From positions 1 through 22,171 of the IMG/VR virus record IMGVR_UViG_3300034073_001813: a DNA stretch of 22,171 nt; one strand, given 5' to 3'. The notes beneath the pieces are model-generated. The model was not told the origin of the DNA, ran no database searches, and was given only the letters and a program-made list of their open reading frames with translations. How positions within the stretch are numbered: position 1 is the stretch's first letter; every line of letters begins with the position of its first letter. Origin of the DNA: a virus. This document shows, in pieces, positions 1 to 22,136 of the stretch. Made by a program: the position numbers and the translations under genes.

Positions 1-2366
1 CCACGGCCGAATGGCGTCCCGGTCTGGGCGTAGCCGTCGCTGTTGGTCGCTCCCGTGCCGCGAGCCGTCGATGCCTGCGTCAACGTCAACGTCGAGCTGG
101 TGTCGTTCAGGCCGGCGCTGGTGAGCGACAAGCCGACGCCTTGGGTCCGCAAGATTTTGGCGGCCTTGAGCGTCAAGGCCCCGCTGGTCCCGCTGGTGGC
201 GTGTTGGAAGACGTCGCCGACATTGCCGGGACAATTCGACAGGCGGGTGAATCCGCCTTGCCACGGCAACGTCAGCGCCCCGTCGGCATTGGTCCTCTGC
301 GTCGCGTCGATGCCGGCCTCCCACGATCCTGGCGTCGCGCCCGCCGGTGCCTTCCACCACAAACCGCCGCCAAGGATGCCGTGCATCTCGCGTTCGCGGT
401 TGTACCAGGCGGCCGAGCCGGTGCCGACCGAAGGCGCGGCGATTGTCGACGACCATTTGGGACAAAGCTTCGCCGCGTTGATTCTGCCGGCGAGCCACTC
501 GATCGACCGCTCGTATAGGCTGTGTGTATACACGCCGGTGGCACCGCCGACCGTGGTGTCCCACTCGGTATCGGACCACTCCGCGGCGATCAAGCGGCCC
601 TCAAGATCGACCTCGTACGATTGGCGGATTTTGTGGTACGTCGTCGTGTCCGCCTCGGAGACCACCGTCGCCGGCCGTTGCTCGATCCATGCGTTGTGCG
701 TCGGCAGATTGGTGCAATACACCGTGTTGGCGATCGTGCGCTTGCCCTTGATCGACGTGATGGCGAACGTCCGAGAGCTGCCGACCTCGATGCGGATCGT
801 TGTCGCATAGGTCGGTCCCGCGTAAGGTCCGGTGCCCGTGCGAGGGTACGAGTCCTCGTCCCCGCTGTCGGCCGTCCAATCCTGGCTGTACGGGTACGTC
901 GTGTCGGTCGCATCGGTCGCCGCCGATTCGCTCGACGGCGAGCACAGGTCGATGACCCATGTCGCGCTGTTGCCCGATCCAGGCGCGGTGATCGCCGCGC
1001 CCGTGCTGTCCTTGGTCCAGCTTTTGGATCCGATCTTGATCGTCACTGCCGCGCCGGCCGCGGCACCGCCGGTCTCGGCCACGATGACCTCGAGGTATCG
1101 CCATCCCATCAGGCCCTGCCATGCCGGCGTATTGCCGGTGTAGGACCGCTCGACTCCCCACGGCGTACCGCCTAGCGCGGTATCGGTGCCTGTCAGATCG
1201 TCGGACTTCTCCGGCGTTTCGATCGACAAGGCATCCATTTTGCGATCTTTCAGCAGCAGCTTGAGATCAGCCGTCGGCTCGGATTCGGTCGATGCAGAGC
1301 TGGACTTTATCCCGATCGAGATCGCGCCCCAGTTGCTGGCCAGCGTGTAATCGTCCTCGTCCTCGACCGTGGTGCCGTCCTTGACCCAGACCTCGCTCGA
1401 CTCGTACCGGTATTCGCGGCTGGTGTCGGTATACGCTCCCCCGCTTGCGGTCACGTCCACCGTGGTCCCCGCCCGCTCGTACTCGAGCGTCATGGTGTCT
1501 GGATATGAGACCTCCATTGCGCGAAGCTGGGCGTCGAGGCTGTACTCCAATGGCACCGCCAGGAATCGCTGGGAATAAGCCGATCCCACGTCCCCGATCG
1601 CATCAGATACGCACGTCGCCGTCACCCGCACGCCGTCCGTATTGTTCGCATCGGCCGAGCCGTGCGTGCCGCTGGCGCTGATGTTCTGATCGATCTGGGC
1701 ACCGCGCCAAGTACCGGAGATCTTGCCGTTGATCGAGAACGCAGAATCATCGAAAAGCTGCTCGGCGAACGCCTCGACCTCGGCATCGACATAGTCGGGG
1801 ATGGCAAGCTCGGTCGAGCTGGCGAACGTGCCGGAACGCAAGGCGCTGGCCGACCCGAGGTTGACCTCGATGCTGTAACTCCCGCCATTCCTGGTGCGAT
1901 AGAACAGGCGGTACTCGACGCCGTGCGGCGGGTCCGGCATATAGTTGACCGCGTTGGACCCGGTCCCGCTCGGTGTCGCCGGTTTGGTGACCTCGAGGCA
2001 CAGTTGGCAATCGATCGAGATCTCCCAGTCCCCGGTCGAGTCGATCGAGATGTACTGCTTCCCGCTCGGCGTGTACGTCGTCAACCCATCGTCGGTCGTG
2101 GTGCCGCCGACCGCGTCGGTCACCACCACCCGCCAACCGATCTCGTAGGTGTATTGGCTTGATGGCGGCGTCGGAATATTGACGATCTCGTGCGGGTCGA
2201 AGGTAAACGAACCCGCGCCGGGAATCGACAACGATCCCCAGCTTTGCCCGTCGTGCGTCGGATCCTCCGGCGGTATTACGCCGTTGCCGTATCGGGTCCA
2301 CTCGATTTCGCCGACCAGATCGCCCGATCCCGTCAGCGTCTCGTCGCGCAGGACGTAGATTGCCAC
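1..2366 (-). CDS. Large tail-tip / fibre protein, C-terminus beyond the window
   Basis: A frame open from a GTG at 2366 to the window edge, at least 788 residues, with no stop. The start MAIYVLRDETLTGSGDLVGE lies 3 bases after the previous stop. Residues about 50-120 include YTYEIGWRVVVTDAVGG; later parts read SYPDTMTLEYERAG, TSREYRYESSEVWVKDGT, GWRYLEVIVAETGG and, near the edge, WYNREREMHGILGGGLWWK and GFTRLSNCPGNVGDVFQHA. The sequence is beta-rich and aromatic, fitting a tail fibre or baseplate-like tip protein. I do not recognise a specific family. It follows the hub, where host-recognition proteins occur. Truncated by the window. Confidence 0.75.
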   Translation of the reverse strand, partial: MAIYVLRDETLTGSGDLVGEIEWTRYGNGVIPPEDPTHDGQSWGSLSIPGAGSFTFDPHEIVNIPTPPSSQYTYEIGWRVVVTDAVGGTTTDDGLTTYTPSGKQYISIDSTGDWEISIDCQLCLEVTKPATPSGTGSNAVNYMPDPPHGVEYRLFYRTRNGGSYSIEVNLGSASALRSGTFASSTELAIPDYVDAEVEAFAEQLFDDSAFSINGKISGTWRGAQIDQNISASGTHGSADANNTDGVRVTATCVSDAIGDVGSAYSQRFLAVPLEYSLDAQLRAMEVSYPDTMTLEYERAGTTVDVTASGGAYTDTSREYRYESSEVWVKDGTTVEDEDDYTLASNWGAISIGIKSSSASTESEPTADLKLLLKDRKMDALSIETPEKSDDLTGTDTALGGTPWGVERSYTGNTPAWQGLMGWRYLEVIVAETGGAAAGAAVTIKIGSKSWTKDSTGAAITAPGSGNSATWVIDLCSPSSESAATDATDTTYPYSQDWTADSGDEDSYPRTGTGPYAGPTYATTIRIEVGSSRTFAITSIKGKRTIANTVYCTNLPTHNAWIEQRPATVVSEADTTTYHKIRQSYEVDLEGRLIAAEWSDTEWDTTVGGATGVYTHSLYERSIEWLAGRINAAKLCPKWSSTIAAPSVGTGSAAWYNREREMHGILGGGLWWKAPAGATPGSWEAGIDATQRTNADGALTLPWQGGFTRLSNCPGNVGDVFQHATSGTSGALTLKAAKILRTQGVGLSLTSAGLNDTSSTLTLTQASTARGTGATNSDGYAQTGTPFGR

Positions 2367-2369
2367 CGA

Positions 2370-2957
2370 TCAAGCGCCGGTATAGCCGCTGATCGATACC
2401 ACCACGTTGGATCCGGTGGTGACGCATGCGGCGTTGACAGCCGTGTTTGCCGTACCGCGCAACGGCACCGGCAGCGTGATCGATACCTGCCCGCCGGCGG
2501 CCGCCAGGTAGCACGAATAGATCGTCGTCGCGCCGTCCTTGATATTGACGCGCGTCGCCACCGTCGCGTGGCTGTTGAATGCCGTGATCTGGGTGATGTA
2601 GGTCCGCACGCCGGATCCCTGCGCCGCGATGACCGACGTGTCGCTGGTGTTGGTGATATCCGCCGAGACGCCCGCGACCATCGCCGGCCCAATCGACATC
2701 GAGACGATCGCCCGACCCTGCGTGTCGTACACGGCATTGACGCGATGGCCCTGGGATACCGCGTTGATGTTCGTCGTGCGGGCCAATCCGCCGATCTTCA
2801 CCGGGTTGCCGCTGTCGCTTACCCCGCTCGCGACATTGCCCGCCACCACCGCCGTGGTGCTTTGCTCTGGTATGTACGGATCCCCGCTTGATCCAGCGCC
2901 CGCGGCCTTGAGGTATACCGTCGTGCCGCTCGCGTCCTTGACCTGTATATCTGCCAT
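2370..2957 (-). CDS. Small beta-rich structural protein
   Basis: A 195-residue protein (MADIQVKDASGTTVYLKAAG), with a GGGGG run 5 bases before the ATG. It is rich in Ala, Thr, Val and Gly. The middle reads GGLARTTNINAVSQGHRVNA and the end NVVVSISGYTGA. The pattern resembles small phage proteins found by tail tips or virion surfaces. No enzyme motif is visible. It sits between the hub and a large tip/fibre gene, so a tail-tip role is likely. Confidence 0.65.
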   Translation of the reverse strand: MADIQVKDASGTTVYLKAAGAGSSGDPYIPEQSTTAVVAGNVASGVSDSGNPVKIGGLARTTNINAVSQGHRVNAVYDTQGRAIVSMSIGPAMVAGVSADITNTSDTSVIAAQGSGVRTYITQITAFNSHATVATRVNIKDGATTIYSCYLAAAGGQVSITLPVPLRGTANTAVNAACVTTGSNVVVSISGYTGA

Positions 2958-2966
2958 CTCGTCCCC

Positions 2967-5264
2967 CTATGCCAGCCACAGCCAGCCGCTGTTGCCGCCG
3001 TCGTTGTATTCCAATTCCTGCGTCCGCACCTCGACCGCCCGGTATCGCGCCCGCCGGACCTGCACGCCGCTGTCGTGCTCGCGCAGGATTTCCACCATCG
3101 GCATCGCCACGATGCGGTAGTTGCCGATCGAGACGTTGTCCGGCCCGTTGATCGTGACCACGTCGCCGAGCCAGAGCGGCACGTCGTTGACATCGCTCAC
3201 AATCAAGTCCGCCTCCCACTCGACGATGTTGCGACCCGGCATCACTCGGTGCGCGATCGACAGTCCGACGTTGCCGATCGCCTGCGTCGAGTTGAGCGCC
3301 GGATCCTGGTACAAGACCGGCTCGACGAAACCTACCCAGTTTGCCGGCCGGCTCGCCGGCGACAGACTTGGATCCTGCGACAGCTCGTCGTTGTACGTCG
3401 CCGATAGCACCTGCCCGGTGTGCGGATCCTGCCCGACCACCTGCACCTGATTGGCCTCCGGTCGCTCCCGCACTTGCGACAACGACCGATAGATCCGATT
3501 TGGCCGAAGCAGAGCGGTGATCGTCGCGGCCGCCGCGGCCGCCAAGCTTGGATACAGCGTCACCACCGGCGTTGGAGTCTCCGCATCGACATCGACCCAT
3601 CGGTATGTCAATCCGCCGTCGGTCGGCACCCATGCCCGCAGCCATGTCGAGCAATAGTCGGCGTGGATCTTGTCCAACCATTGGCCGATCGTGTCGCCGC
3701 GATCCGGCAACACTGCAAATTTGCCGAGGGATATATCGGTCGAAAGCGCCGCGCCGACTCCGACGTCGTCCACATCGATGTCCCCGCTGGTCGGATCGAT
3801 TCCCGCCTGGGACACCAGATCCTCGACCACGGCATCGATCGCCACGTTGTCGTACGGCAACGGGTGCGGGATCCATGTGCGGTCGAACAGCTCGTTGCGA
3901 TCCCCGCCGGCGAACGACAGCAATGACCAATCGTGGTCTGCCGACTTGTCGCCCTCGATGTACTCGATGCTCGGCGGTCCCAGCGTGCCGCGCACCACAT
4001 CGATCTCGCCTGGCGTCGGTGTAGCTCCGTCCTCGACGGCGATGCGGAACGGTCGATTGCCGGTGATCTCCGGTTGCTCGACGCCGGCATCCTCGAGGTT
4101 TTTACGTCGCGCCGACATCGAGACCCGCACCCGACCGTCCTCGCCGACATCCCAGGACAACGACTCAATCGCGCAGGTCACATCCACCTCGGCGTCCGCC
4201 ACCGTCGTGGTATACGTCGGTCCGTACCAGACATCCGCGCTGTAGATCCCGATATTGCGCGTGCCGTCGCCCGTCATCGTGATCTTGATCCTGGCCTGAT
4301 CCTGCGTGCCGTCGAGCGTCAATGCACTACCGGCGGCATCGGTTAGGCTGAACGTTGGAACGATGCTGTACGGCCCAGGTCCGAAATTGTGGCCGTAGTA
4401 CCTCGACGACAACGACGACGCACCGCTCGGCCACGGGTATCGGGATCGCTGGACCTTGCTGTAGACCGATCCGCTGGTCTCGTAGTTGACCAACGCCATC
4501 TGCCACGCCGCCTTGCCGACCGGAGCGTAGACATAGAACGGCGAATCCGGCGTGATCGTGGTCGGCGGCGTGCTGTCGGTTATCTGGTCCCATGCCGGCA
4601 AATCGGCGAACGTGTGGACGATGGCCGAGCCGTTGGCATCGATGATCAGCAGGTCGCGCACGCGAAATGGGATCATGGTCATCGCCACGAATTTGCGGCG
4701 CGAATCGTTGCCCGTCTTGGCGACCCGCTGGGTGGTTCGCGTCGCCGCCTCCGGCGTGTATTCCCCGACCAGAGCGCCGCCCTTGTACACCAGGTAGGTG
4801 CCATTGGAGCGGAGCTTGACCTCGACGCCGGTGCCACGGCCCCAGCCGCACTCAAGGACGACGGTATTGGCGTTGGATCCGACGCCGTCGATGTAGGCCG
4901 CAACATGCATGGCTTGATTGACGGTCGGAATGAATCGCGTCTCGACCACCTCGGCCACGCCCTGGGACTCGTGCCAAAAGTCGTTGGACGCCCGAATCTG
5001 GTTGACCTTCCACTTCCCCGGCGTCGGAAACACCAGGTTGGTCTGACCGATACGCTCGTAAGATCCAGTGAAGGTAGTCTCCCAGGCGGCCGTCAACGGC
5101 AGCGGAGCAAGCATCGCGGTATTGGTCACCGGATCGATATACGTCGTCGTGTCGGACAACGCCCGATCCCAGTTTGTGCCATCGACCGACGCGGCGATCC
5201 GTCCCAGATCGACCCGCGGCTCCGCGCAATCCAAATACACCTTGAGCGGCCATGATGTCGCCAT
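2967..5264 (-). CDS. Tail hub / tip protein with N-terminal lectin-like region
   Basis: A 765-residue protein starting MATSWPLKVYLDCAEP one base after the tape measure stop. Residues about 110-175 (MHVAAYIDGVGSNANTVVLE onwards) resemble a concanavalin/LamG-type beta sandwich. The middle and C-terminal parts have tail-hub character: DVTCAIESLSWDVGEDGRVR, YRSLSQVRERPEANQVQVVG and EWEADLIVSDVNDVPLWLGD, ending in a W-rich tail NSGWLWLA. Such proteins close the tail tube and carry receptor-binding parts. Position straight after the tape measure fits. It may combine functions split over two genes in other siphophages. Confidence 0.75.
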   Translation of the reverse strand: MATSWPLKVYLDCAEPRVDLGRIAASVDGTNWDRALSDTTTYIDPVTNTAMLAPLPLTAAWETTFTGSYERIGQTNLVFPTPGKWKVNQIRASNDFWHESQGVAEVVETRFIPTVNQAMHVAAYIDGVGSNANTVVLECGWGRGTGVEVKLRSNGTYLVYKGGALVGEYTPEAATRTTQRVAKTGNDSRRKFVAMTMIPFRVRDLLIIDANGSAIVHTFADLPAWDQITDSTPPTTITPDSPFYVYAPVGKAAWQMALVNYETSGSVYSKVQRSRYPWPSGASSLSSRYYGHNFGPGPYSIVPTFSLTDAAGSALTLDGTQDQARIKITMTGDGTRNIGIYSADVWYGPTYTTTVADAEVDVTCAIESLSWDVGEDGRVRVSMSARRKNLEDAGVEQPEITGNRPFRIAVEDGATPTPGEIDVVRGTLGPPSIEYIEGDKSADHDWSLLSFAGGDRNELFDRTWIPHPLPYDNVAIDAVVEDLVSQAGIDPTSGDIDVDDVGVGAALSTDISLGKFAVLPDRGDTIGQWLDKIHADYCSTWLRAWVPTDGGLTYRWVDVDAETPTPVVTLYPSLAAAAAATITALLRPNRIYRSLSQVRERPEANQVQVVGQDPHTGQVLSATYNDELSQDPSLSPASRPANWVGFVEPVLYQDPALNSTQAIGNVGLSIAHRVMPGRNIVEWEADLIVSDVNDVPLWLGDVVTINGPDNVSIGNYRIVAMPMVEILREHDSGVQVRRARYRAVEVRTQELEYNDGGNSGWLWLA

Positions 5265-19936: not shown

Positions 19937-19966
19937 GATCGTTTCGTCGATCCCAACAAAACGATC
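19937..19966 (-). other. Inverted repeat overlapping the terL stop codon
   Basis: Sequences beginning GATCGTTT and ending AAACGATC form a stem of about 10 bp with one wobble around a 10-base loop. The repeat overlaps the terL stop. No run of T follows on either strand, so it is not a standard intrinsic terminator. It may protect or end the terL message, or be incidental. Confidence 0.5.
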
Positions 19967-21146
19967 AGACCGCCGCGAAGCTTCGGCGGGAACCGAGCGC
20001 CAGCCAGGCGTAGGCCGTGGCATCGACGGCGTCGTCGTGCCGACCGACCGGGAACGAAAGCAGCTCGTCGGCGAACCATGCCGGCAGGTCGGGTGCGTGT
20101 ACGACGAGACCTTGCTCGTATCGGGCCTCCAGCGGCCCAAACCTCGTCACCTTGTCGCGGTCCGGCCTGATTCCCCGCACCGGCAATTTGGTGCGCCGTA
20201 GGAGCTCCTGGACGACTGCCGCCTGGTATTGCACCTGCTCGATGCCGATCGAGACCGGCGACCACTTCGCGGCCATTTGCTCGACGAAGCGCAGGACGCC
20301 GTCGAATGGTGCGCGGATCCGCGCCGCGTCGCGGATGTACACGATGCCGTCGTCCCCGCGGGATAGCACCACGGCGGCCGTGTAGTCGGCCTCGGCCTTG
20401 GTGCTGATCGCAAGGTCGACTCCCATGACGCACGACAGGCCATCCGGCGCGGTGCCGGTGCGAAGCCACTCGCGCTTTATGCGAGCGCCGGCGGCATCGA
20501 CAAACTCGGCGAGGTACTCCTGCCGGTACGCAATGCTGGGGAGGCTCGACGCCGCGGCCTCGACCTCGCCGGGATCGATGTACGGATTGCTGGTGGTCGG
20601 CATCTGCCACCGCGCCCACTCGGGATCGGCATCGGCCAGATCGTAGAGGACGCTGAAGTAGTTCCGACCCTTCGGGGTGCTGAGAAAAAATGCGTCTCCG
20701 CGCCAGTCGGTCAGCGTCGGCCGTATCGCCTCCGTCCAGGCCTCCTCGAGGTGCCGTGCCATCGCGGCCTCGTCGATCACCACGCGCTGGTATTTGCGCC
20801 CGCGAGCGACGGTGCTGGGGTCGTCGAGCGTCCAGTAGTCGATCGCCGCGCCCGTGATCAGCTCGATGCGCGGTGCCGGCGTCTGCACCGCGCGCCGGAT
20901 CACCGGCTGATAGATCCGCTTGTGGTCGTTGTACGCCTCCTCGAGGAGCCGGTAGGTCGGTGCAAACCATGCGACCGATCGAGCCGCCTTGAGGATCGGA
21001 TCGGCGAGCAGGTTACCACCGAGCGTGGTCTTGCCAAAGCGTCGGCCTTCTCAGCCACAGGCGAGGACATTGTAACGCCTCGCCTGTGCCAGTATCTCCA
21101 TTTGCGCGCTATGTGGCCTAGGAAGGATAAGTTTAATGTCGCTCAT
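19965..21146 (-). CDS. terL: Terminase large subunit (ATPase/nuclease) with an in-frame TGA just before Walker A
   Basis: The packaging motor and DNA-cutting subunit. From the ATG at 21146 the frame reads MSDIKLILPRPHSAQ and continues to codon 31, as terminase N-termini do. Codon 32 is TGA (21051-21053). The same frame continues with E33 and Walker A GRRFGKT at 34-40, Walker B VVIDEA at about 122, the coupling motif LSTPKGR at about 155, nuclease aspartate D244, glutamate E303 and the final HDDAVDA cluster at about 370-376. All motifs are intact. Skipping codons 32-34 gives a 390-residue protein with the typical CGRRFGKT sequence. Without recoding, only a 31-residue peptide would be made. The first later start in frame, GTG at 20903, lacks the ATPase loop. 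The first 31 codons use different codons (ctt, cct, agg, ata) from the rest. It could be a functional recoded gene, a recent pseudogene or an assembly error. Confidence 0.85.
21045..21056 (-). other. Candidate translational bypass site: GGC TGA GAA GGC
   Basis: Read on the minus strand, a glycine codon GGC is followed directly by TGA, then GAA, then an identical GGC, then CGA CGC encoding the start of Walker A. If peptidyl-tRNA left the first GGC and re-paired with the second, translation would continue as CGRRFGKT, the sequence expected for this family. The two GGC codons can also pair across a GAGAA loop to give a 4-bp hairpin. T4 gene 60 has matched Gly codons with a stop immediately after the take-off codon, which is known to be bypassed. 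Here the gap is nine bases rather than fifty. Bypass is inferred, not shown. Confidence 0.5.
21056..21088 (-). other. 11-bp perfect inverted repeat ending in the first GGC codon
   Basis: Arms CACAGGCGAGG (21056-21066) and CCTCGCCTGTG (21078-21088) are perfect complements around an 11-base loop. In the minus-strand mRNA the hairpin covers terminase codons for about AQARRYNVLACG and its last base is the first base of the GGC codon before TGA. Its position resembles the 5' stem-loop known to help bypassing in T4 gene 60. It could also be a nuclease recognition palindrome, or chance within a coding region. Confidence 0.7.
21120..21127 (+). promoter_or_regulatory. Ribosome binding site of the HNH gene, inside terL coding DNA
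   Basis: AGGAAGGA lies 8 bases before the ATG at 21136. It is antisense to codons 7-9 of terL, and the two genes' 5' ends overlap by 11 bases head to head. It decides in favour of the longer HNH start. A TATACT sequence at 21162-21167 is too close to the inner ATG at 21175 to act as an ordinary promoter with a leader. Confidence 0.55.
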
Positions 21147-21759
21147 TCTTCAACCACACGGTATACTCTTTAACATGAAACGAATCTGTCAGCATTGCCA
21201 AAAACAGTATGATACGCCTCCGTCCCAACGTCCTAAATTTTGCTCTTCCGCATGTGCTGGACTCGCGAAGCGAAAATCGCAAGACAGGAAATGTATCTGC
21301 TGTGGTGCATATTTTACCTGCCCCCCAAGCCGAGCGTCTATCTATTGTTCAAAGTCTTGCCATAGGACTCATAAGAATCTGATTGCTAATCCAAATTGGT
21401 CTCGAGACATTACTGGATGCAACAATCCGATGTTTGGGGTCAGGAGAGTCGGCGAGTCGAACCCTATGTTTGGCAGAAGGAAAGAAGAATCACCTCGATG
21501 GAAAGGCGGCAGAAAAATCAGGAAGGATGGATACGTCATCGTATGCGTGCCTGATGATTACCCAAATCCGTGTTCTAAGCATTCATCTGGTACGAAATAT
21601 GCTTTAGAGCATAGGATTGTCATGGAGCAAAATCTAGGACGATACTTAACTCCAATCGAAGTGGTTCATCACATCGACAGAAATCCTTCCAATAACAAGA
21701 TTGAAAATTTGAAATTGTACGCATCGCACGCGGAACATATACGGGAAGAGCACTCGTAA
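21136..21759 (+). CDS. HNH homing endonuclease with zinc-ribbon and NUMOD3-like motifs
   Basis: A 207-residue protein and the only convincing plus-strand gene. Two CxxC-type clusters (about residues 18-75) suggest zinc ribbons. Two NPMFG repeats at about 97-112 resemble NUMOD3 DNA-binding motifs and are followed by SPRWKGG. An HNH nuclease core follows at about 158-201 (EHRIVM, then VVHHIDRNPSNN, then ASHAEH), with candidate metal and catalytic residues H178, H179, N187 and H198/H201. Known relatives cut DNA at a specific site and spread their own gene. The ATG at 21136 has an AGGAAGGA ribosome binding site 8 bases upstream. An inner ATG at 21175 (MKRICQHC) looks more like the usual family start but has no such site. 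The gene is AT-richer than its surroundings and I found no GATC in it, unlike the flanks. HNH proteins beside terminases can also help packaging, but the orientation and NUMOD3-like motifs favour a homing gene. Confidence 0.9.
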   Translation: MSLILQPHGILFNMKRICQHCQKQYDTPPSQRPKFCSSACAGLAKRKSQDRKCICCGAYFTCPPSRASIYCSKSCHRTHKNLIANPNWSRDITGCNNPMFGVRRVGESNPMFGRRKEESPRWKGGRKIRKDGYVIVCVPDDYPNPCSKHSSGTKYALEHRIVMEQNLGRYLTPIEVVHHIDRNPSNNKIENLKLYASHAEHIREEHS

Positions 21760-21761
21760 AA

Positions 21762-22136
21762 TCAGTTTTTCGTTGCGTCGGCCGGCGCGAGCTCCTCGGC
21801 ATACTCGACGACGACTCGGACCGCACCTCCATCGGCTCCGGTCTGTTCCTGGCGAGCGGACCAGTCCTGCTTCATTTTGCGCTCGAGCCACCATGCCGCG
21901 GCTTGCCACGACTCGTCGGCCGCGGTGCGGACCCGCTGGACCATCGCCAGCTCCGCGTCGGCTTCGGCTGCTTTTACGTCGTCCGCAAATTCCGCGTATC
22001 GGACCAGCCATCGAGCAAAAGTGTCTTGATCGATTCCGCCGGCCCACGAAGCTGCGCGCCTGGTGTTGCCGGCTCGCAATGTGTCAATGATTCGCTGGTG
22101 ACGGTCGGCGTTGTATTTTGGCGGTCGTCCTGCCAT
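21762..22136 (-). CDS. terS: Terminase small subunit (DNA-recognition subunit of the packaging motor)
   Basis: A 124-residue protein. It would recognise the viral DNA and load it on to the large terminase subunit. It begins MAGRPPKYN, a common start for small terminases, followed by a predicted helix-turn-helix at about residues 12-45 with the phrase QDTFARWL. A charged helical stretch follows (about 48-95), then a short acidic tail. An AGGAG ribosome binding site lies 7 bases before the ATG. Its position directly ahead of the large subunit supports the call. Its stop codon lies only two bases from the stop of the opposite-strand HNH gene, so that gene is inserted tail-to-tail against it without damaging it. 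The family assignment rests on the N-terminal motif, size and position rather than on any single diagnostic residue. Confidence 0.8.
   Translation of the reverse strand: MAGRPPKYNADRHQRIIDTLRAGNTRRAASWAGGIDQDTFARWLVRYAEFADDVKAAEADAELAMVQRVRTAADESWQAAAWWLERKMKQDWSARQEQTGADGGAVRVVVEYAEELAPADATKN

Follow-up and report, generated by a model that had tools for sequence, protein, structure and literature searches.

Introduction

In bacteria and phages, translational bypassing has so far rested essentially on one gene, gene 60 of phage T4. There, gene 39/60 carries the mobA insertion, and a 50-nt bypass is required in gene 60 (PMC3014915, PMC2988022), with a 5′ stem-loop as its motor in the current model (PMC5009743, PMC11194080). 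In the mitochondria of Magnusiomyces capitatus, many inserts (byps) are tolerated via translational bypassing, and the terminase of Streptomyces phage Hau3 has been proposed as a bypass candidate (PMC5009743). Synthetic 9-nt 'stop-hops' in E. coli are also described in that review (its reference 54). A natural in-frame stop-hop, on the other hand, had no known occurrence as of the same 2016 review; our own search covered open-licence literature only, and other work may exist.

Here, we followed up a first-pass annotation of a 22,171-nt stretch of viral DNA (the window; IMG/VR record IMGVR_UViG_3300034073_001813). It had reported an in-frame TGA at codon 32 of terL, within GGC TGA GAA GGC, and this was borne out, on the minus strand. 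Its suggestion of a bypass as in T4 gene 60 also gained support: an HNH cassette of that kind, combined with a Gly-to-Gly bypass over the stop, is in our judgement the best explanation and a probable one, albeit on comparative evidence alone and without translation data. The annotation knew of no terminase example, but a candidate, that of Hau3 at a UUA codon, had already been discussed (PMC5009743). It also lacked three features described below: a conserved, compensated hairpin just before the take-off codon, the replacement of the terL 5′ end, and the severed terL codons 1-30 of two relatives.

Results

Codons 31-34 of the window's terL read GGC TGA GAA GGC and are followed by CGR..., the site falling between the Cys and the remaining Walker A motif (Table 1). 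The terL remainder matches Terminase_6N and Terminase_6C as well as terminase PHROGs. An HNH gene had been placed just upstream of terL; it does lie there, with terS on its far side, but is antisense to terL. The HNH stretch has a GC content of ~45%, versus 65-70% in the surrounding DNA.

Table 1. Features of the terL locus in the window; take-off, landing and hop refer to the proposed bypass.
Feature	Position	Strand	Remark
terS, small terminase subunit	21762..22136	-	ends in TGA
HNH homing-type endonuclease gene (HNH_3 domain)	21136..21759	+	antisense to terL; later start 21175 possible
terL codons 1-31 (MSDIKLILPRPHSAQMEILAQARRYNVLACG), read as an imported replacement 5′ end	21054..21146	-	ATG at 21146-21144; haplotype block specific to inserted alleles, Fst 0.28-0.77
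Hairpin left arm, CACAGGCGAGG	21078..21088	-	
Hairpin right arm, CCTCGCCTGTG	21056..21066	-	last base is base 1 of the take-off codon
Take-off codon GGC (Gly 31)	21054..21056	-	GGC in 74/74 inserted alleles
In-frame UGA stop, terL codon 32	21051..21053	-	invariant; single-base sense variants absent
GAA codon after the stop	21050-21048	-	
Nine bases TGA GAA GGC, proposed hop span	21045..21053	-	TGAGTAGGT in most relatives
Landing codon GGC	21045..21047	-	GGT or GGC in 73/74 inserted alleles
Rest of terL, RRFGKTTLGG... to its own TGA stop (19967-19965)	19965..21044	-	open frame

When the portion of terL following the stop was searched as protein against IMG/VR, 80 terL loci (78-97% identity) were returned. 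In this unbiased set, 37 of the 80 nearest loci, or 38/81 counting the window, carry the same insert at the same position. Reading the Walker A region of the 80 loci, together with a pattern scan and removal of duplicates, yielded 113 distinct terL sequences; in 74 of these, the insert sits between ...NVLACG and RRFGKT (a proportion that is not a frequency, because the pattern scan had targeted the insert itself), while the other 39 read directly ACGRRFGKT. The insert measures 9 nt in 72 alleles and 11 nt in two, no further length emerging from a scan for others, and comes as TGAGTAGGT (65 alleles), TGAGTAGGC (5), TGAGAAGGC (1, the window), TGAGTAGAT (1) or TGAGTGTAGGT (2). Inserted alleles are spread over terLs down to 69% amino acid identity, and the two phages with the 11-nt allele have terLs 80% identical in DNA. 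The window's nearest relatives, L002, L004 and L005 (97, 95 and 94% amino acid identity; 91% in DNA), are insert-free and read ...ACGRRFGKT. GTDB cellular genomes contained no relative by protein or by pattern, and INPHARED none above 60% identity. Recurrence far beyond chance confirms, at the level of sequence, that the insert is real: the assembly artefact that the first-pass annotation had allowed for, or a sequencing error, is excluded by the same insert occurring in 74 distinct alleles from many samples.

As a separate observation, the source record of locus L060 (62,434 bases) contains two terLs, 31,457 bases apart. A genome dimer was rejected since the two differ (77% identical); the record is either chimeric or a junction of two related genomes.

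The UGA stop is present in all 74 inserted alleles. VGA and TGB pattern scans retrieved no terL with a sense codon replacing TGA, the scan covering TAA, TCA and TTA at the stop position found nothing, and the matches to sense variants of the stop proved to be chance matches in other genes. This bears on readthrough of UGA by a near-cognate tRNA, whose product, ACG-X-V/E-G-RRFGKT, would have three extra residues in the P-loop region. Readthrough could accommodate that 72/74 inserts are 9 nt long and thus frame-neutral, that the landing Gly keeps GRRFGKT intact, and that the GAT allele of L044 (see below) is also readable. However, alleles with a sense codon in place of UGA would be expected if three extra residues were tolerated, and none of the 39 uninserted terLs has extra residues here. 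Besides, the 11-nt allele, with two stops and a frame change in TGA GTG TAG, would need both stops to be read plus a frameshift, whereas GGC to GGT still fits in that allele; and both the GGC/GGY matching and the hairpin 5′ of the stop would be left unexplained. We therefore consider readthrough unlikely. A dedicated suppressor tRNA is likewise not supported, as no tRNA gene was found in four insert-bearing contigs of 31.5-32.4 kb (near-genome size). Reassignment of TGA would call for its use as a sense codon elsewhere in the genome; in these phages it is an ordinary stop that ends terS, terL and other genes. Selenocysteine insertion is not supported either: it would call for a SECIS hairpin 3′ of the UGA, whereas the hairpin seen here is 5′ and the 3′ side is unconserved. 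Independently of this question, two inserted phages have tRNA-Met (CAT) genes just upstream of terL (L127:2942-3015 and L010:4538-4611).

The codons flanking the stop differ between inserted and uninserted alleles. GGC as the take-off codon is universal among the former, as compared to 8/39 of the latter, in which the corresponding Gly is encoded by GGG (19), GGT (11), GGC (8) or GGA (1); no other take-off codon preceding a stop turned up in a scan. The landing codon is GGT in 67, GGC in six and GAT in one of the 74 alleles and never GGA or GGG, which occupy the landing-site Gly in 20/39 uninserted alleles. Where the next codon is AGA, the Gly codon is GGG in 17/23 uninserted alleles versus GGY in 26/26 inserted ones. 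Fisher's tests gave p = 1e-20 for take-off and 1e-11 for landing, uncorrected for relatedness; our tests generally ignore shared ancestry, a concern that the mosaic tree (see below) weakens. Two features expected of a bypass site are met, namely that take-off and landing codons pair with the same tRNA (GGC to GGT/GGC in 73/74 alleles) and that a stop directly follows the take-off codon (UGA, 74/74). GAT, a single allele shared by three contigs (L044, L057, L059; TGAGTAGAT), is the only non-Gly landing codon and the main misfit to the hop model, because tRNA-Gly pairs poorly with it. This misfit would soften if, as a paper cited in PMC3014915 states in its title, minimal peptidyl-tRNA:mRNA pairing can suffice for resumption. 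Should the landing codon be part of the element, GGY at the landing site could reflect mere hitch-hiking.

Directly 5′ of the stop, all 74 inserted alleles contain an 11-13-bp hairpin, CACAGGC[A/G]AG[G/A]CG...CCT[T/C]GCCTGTG, which ends at the take-off codon and folds with -23 to -25 kcal/mol (z -5.4 to -6.4), as opposed to -12.0 and -15.7 kcal/mol for two uninserted alleles. Across its eight versions, two pairs are compensated and no stem pair is broken. Third-position diversity of the stem codons is 0.047 with and 0.34 without insert, whereas it reaches up to 0.45 in loop codons and 0.40 in downstream codons, and the constraint on the stem ends sharply at the insert. Matches to the right arm outside terL were chance matches in other genes. 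Only 6 nt separate the two Gly codons and no A-site take-off stem-loop was seen: the sequence 3′ of the landing codon is unconserved, with downstream codons varying freely. A nascent-peptide signal like that of T4 could not be demonstrated. That the hairpin stimulates forward movement of the ribosome is an inference without experimental data, and its role could partly lie at the DNA level.

The covariation fits an RNA or a single-stranded DNA structure equally, and the hairpin might instead serve as a recognition signal for removing the nine bases from DNA or RNA, be it by site-specific excision or by RNA processing. In favour of this, L016 has the hairpin without the insert; yet L016 and L027 (the latter with one mismatch in the hairpin and likewise no insert) appear to be recombinants that carry a normal uninserted allele on their right side. 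Excision would not predict the GGC/GGY matching either, and no Rfam intron family, and thus no group I or II ribozyme, was detected in the window, L127 or L053. At 9-11 nt, the insert is moreover shorter than any self-splicing intron known to us. Altogether, we give removal of the nine bases very little credence.

Does the interrupted gene remain in use? The dN/dS of the downstream part of terL is 0.059 with and 0.053 without the insert, and no internal stop occurs in the downstream frame of any of the 74 inserted alleles. Downstream terL is under normal purifying selection, which excludes decay and, with it, the disabling insertion listed as an alternative in the first-pass annotation. An unrescued stop in the P-loop would inactivate TerL, and the carriers might then be defective, or a further terL present in the same cell might complement them. 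Besides purifying selection, the share of the allele in the nearest set (38/81, including the window) argues against this, as does the lack of a second terL in the ~31.5-kb contigs: by Pfam match, ten insert-bearing contigs (19-32 kb) each have at most one terL; in two of the ten the terL, situated at the end of the contig or close to it, escaped the match. An inactive terL is hence very improbable.

Homing endonuclease insertions have split phage genes (PMC2988022), and codons 1-31 and a restarted remainder could in principle make two polypeptides, as in Aeh1 nrdA. However, the first in-frame ATG, GTG or TTG lies 7-94 codons after RRF at unconserved positions, so that any restart would come at least seven codons after RRF and lose the Walker A lysine. 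Internal restart is thereby excluded, as no start codon restores translation before this lysine, and we regard a split gene as extremely unlikely.

The origin of the insert can be traced in L127 and L053. To the left of the HNH gene, both retain the severed original terL codons 1-30 (...LREAKRYNVLAC), and the break falls exactly in front of the Gly codon. Next come the antisense HNH gene and a second start of terL, which opens codons 1-31 including the hairpin; TGA GTA, or its longer version, then leads on to the Gly codon and the remaining terL. Comparing these junctions to empty sites makes the insertion point identifiable, as required for a homing cassette, and points to an element of ~0.7 kb between the Walker A Cys and Gly that brings a substitute 5′ end. 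Of the severed copy, L174, L125, L073 and L086 keep no more than the region of the start codon. Fungal mitochondrial homing ORFs, as in Allomyces atp6, similarly interrupt a gene and supply a substitute for the severed terminus; there, however, the junction is in normal reading frame, whereas the terL junction keeps a stop and an extra codon.

It had been anticipated that the insert would occur only with the HNH gene. Strict linkage fails, since 66 of the 74 inserted alleles are HNH-free and most inserted alleles retain only the 5′ block and the insert, yet an association remains: all eight HNH-bearing alleles are inserted, as opposed to 0/39 uninserted alleles with HNH (p = 0.03, relatedness ignored). 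The association is modest. Over codons 1-31, inserted and uninserted alleles are separated by an Fst of 0.28-0.77, which drops to ~0 right behind the insert and is also ~0 across almost the whole of terS. At least 16 switches of insert state fall on supported branches of the downstream-gene tree. Together, these patterns imply that the 5′ block is exchanged as a unit.

Discussion

Sequence comparison shows that a mobile HNH cassette interrupted terL between the Cys and Gly of ACG-RRFGKT, its cargo being the antisense HNH gene and substitute terL codons 1-31, and that it left UGA plus GAA or GTA between its own terminal GGC and the Gly preceding RRFGKT. From here on, the model is inferred. Full-length TerL would arise by a programmed 9-nt stop-hop, in which the ribosome would pause while GGC occupies the P site and UGA the A site. 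Since the hairpin's 3′ arm has its last base in the take-off codon, the whole arm would be inside the ribosome at take-off, a geometry that, if inferred correctly, is unlike that of T4; refolding behind the ribosome, the hairpin may pull the mRNA forward. Peptidyl-tRNA-Gly(GCC) would then leave GGC and re-pair with GGT or GGC nine, rarely eleven, bases on, the predicted product being exactly ...ACG-RRFGKT. Judging by the recombination pattern and by analogy to T4 mobA, without cleavage data, the interruption should confer resistance to the HNH nuclease, and the resistant allele could persist and spread with or without the HNH gene. Homing activity of the HNH protein is inferred too, neither this activity nor the cut site having been shown. 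All evidence for bypass is comparative, i.e. there are no proteomic, reporter or read-level data.

In strategy, the locus resembles T4 mobA/gene 60, an analogy drawn without comparing the HNH and MobA sequences. Both have an HNH-associated insert in a phage gene near its start, a Gly take-off codon directly before a stop, a matched landing Gly and a 5′ stem-loop upstream of take-off. On the other hand, the proposed terL hop spans 9 (11) nt and stays in frame, while that of gene 60 spans 50 nt; the stop is UGA rather than UAG, and the codons are GGC to GGY where T4 has GGA to GGA. TerL has one hairpin, ending at the take-off codon, and, unlike T4, no visible A-site take-off stem-loop. Its cassette brings a replacement 5′ end, which that of T4 does not, and it is represented by 74 alleles of a terminase as opposed to a topoisomerase of one phage. 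Hau3 also concerns a phage terminase gene proposed to need bypassing, yet its proposed signal consists of codon UUA and a KGWG peptide, with neither a stop plus hairpin nor a homing cassette. The byps, for their part, involve mitochondrial ribosomes, many genes, partial codon matching and apparent independence of context, and the E. coli stop-hops are artificial constructs, whereas the terL case is natural.

Taken together, it seems likely, though we hold this broader claim a shade less firmly than the bypass explanation itself, that a widespread homing element repairs its host gene in translation rather than by splicing, a hairpin-driven in-frame 9-nt hop joining the substitute 5′ end to the resident remainder; this would be the first in-frame stop-hop to occur naturally, and scores of phages would share it. 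If true, it would provide a second bypass system, compact and naturally replicated, with dozens of variants, a short hop and one hairpin. The rare 11-nt and GAT alleles would be natural mutants, the latter testing the landing rule. Homing elements would then neutralise themselves by translational recoding inside an essential motif, and the link between homing immunity and bypassing would become directly testable.

In L192 (positions 1809-3573), a homologue of the HNH protein (47% identical) is encoded directly upstream of a distant terL (25% identity) and antisense to it. No stop or insert was found in that terL, and the arrangement suggests that the link of this HNH family to the start region of terL extends beyond the present group. 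In the insert-free L005, a relic of terL codons 1-13 is fused to an unidentified ORF 610 to 93 bases before RRF, and the intact terL with a new start follows the relic, so that here a second gene insertion has replaced the 5′ end of terL.
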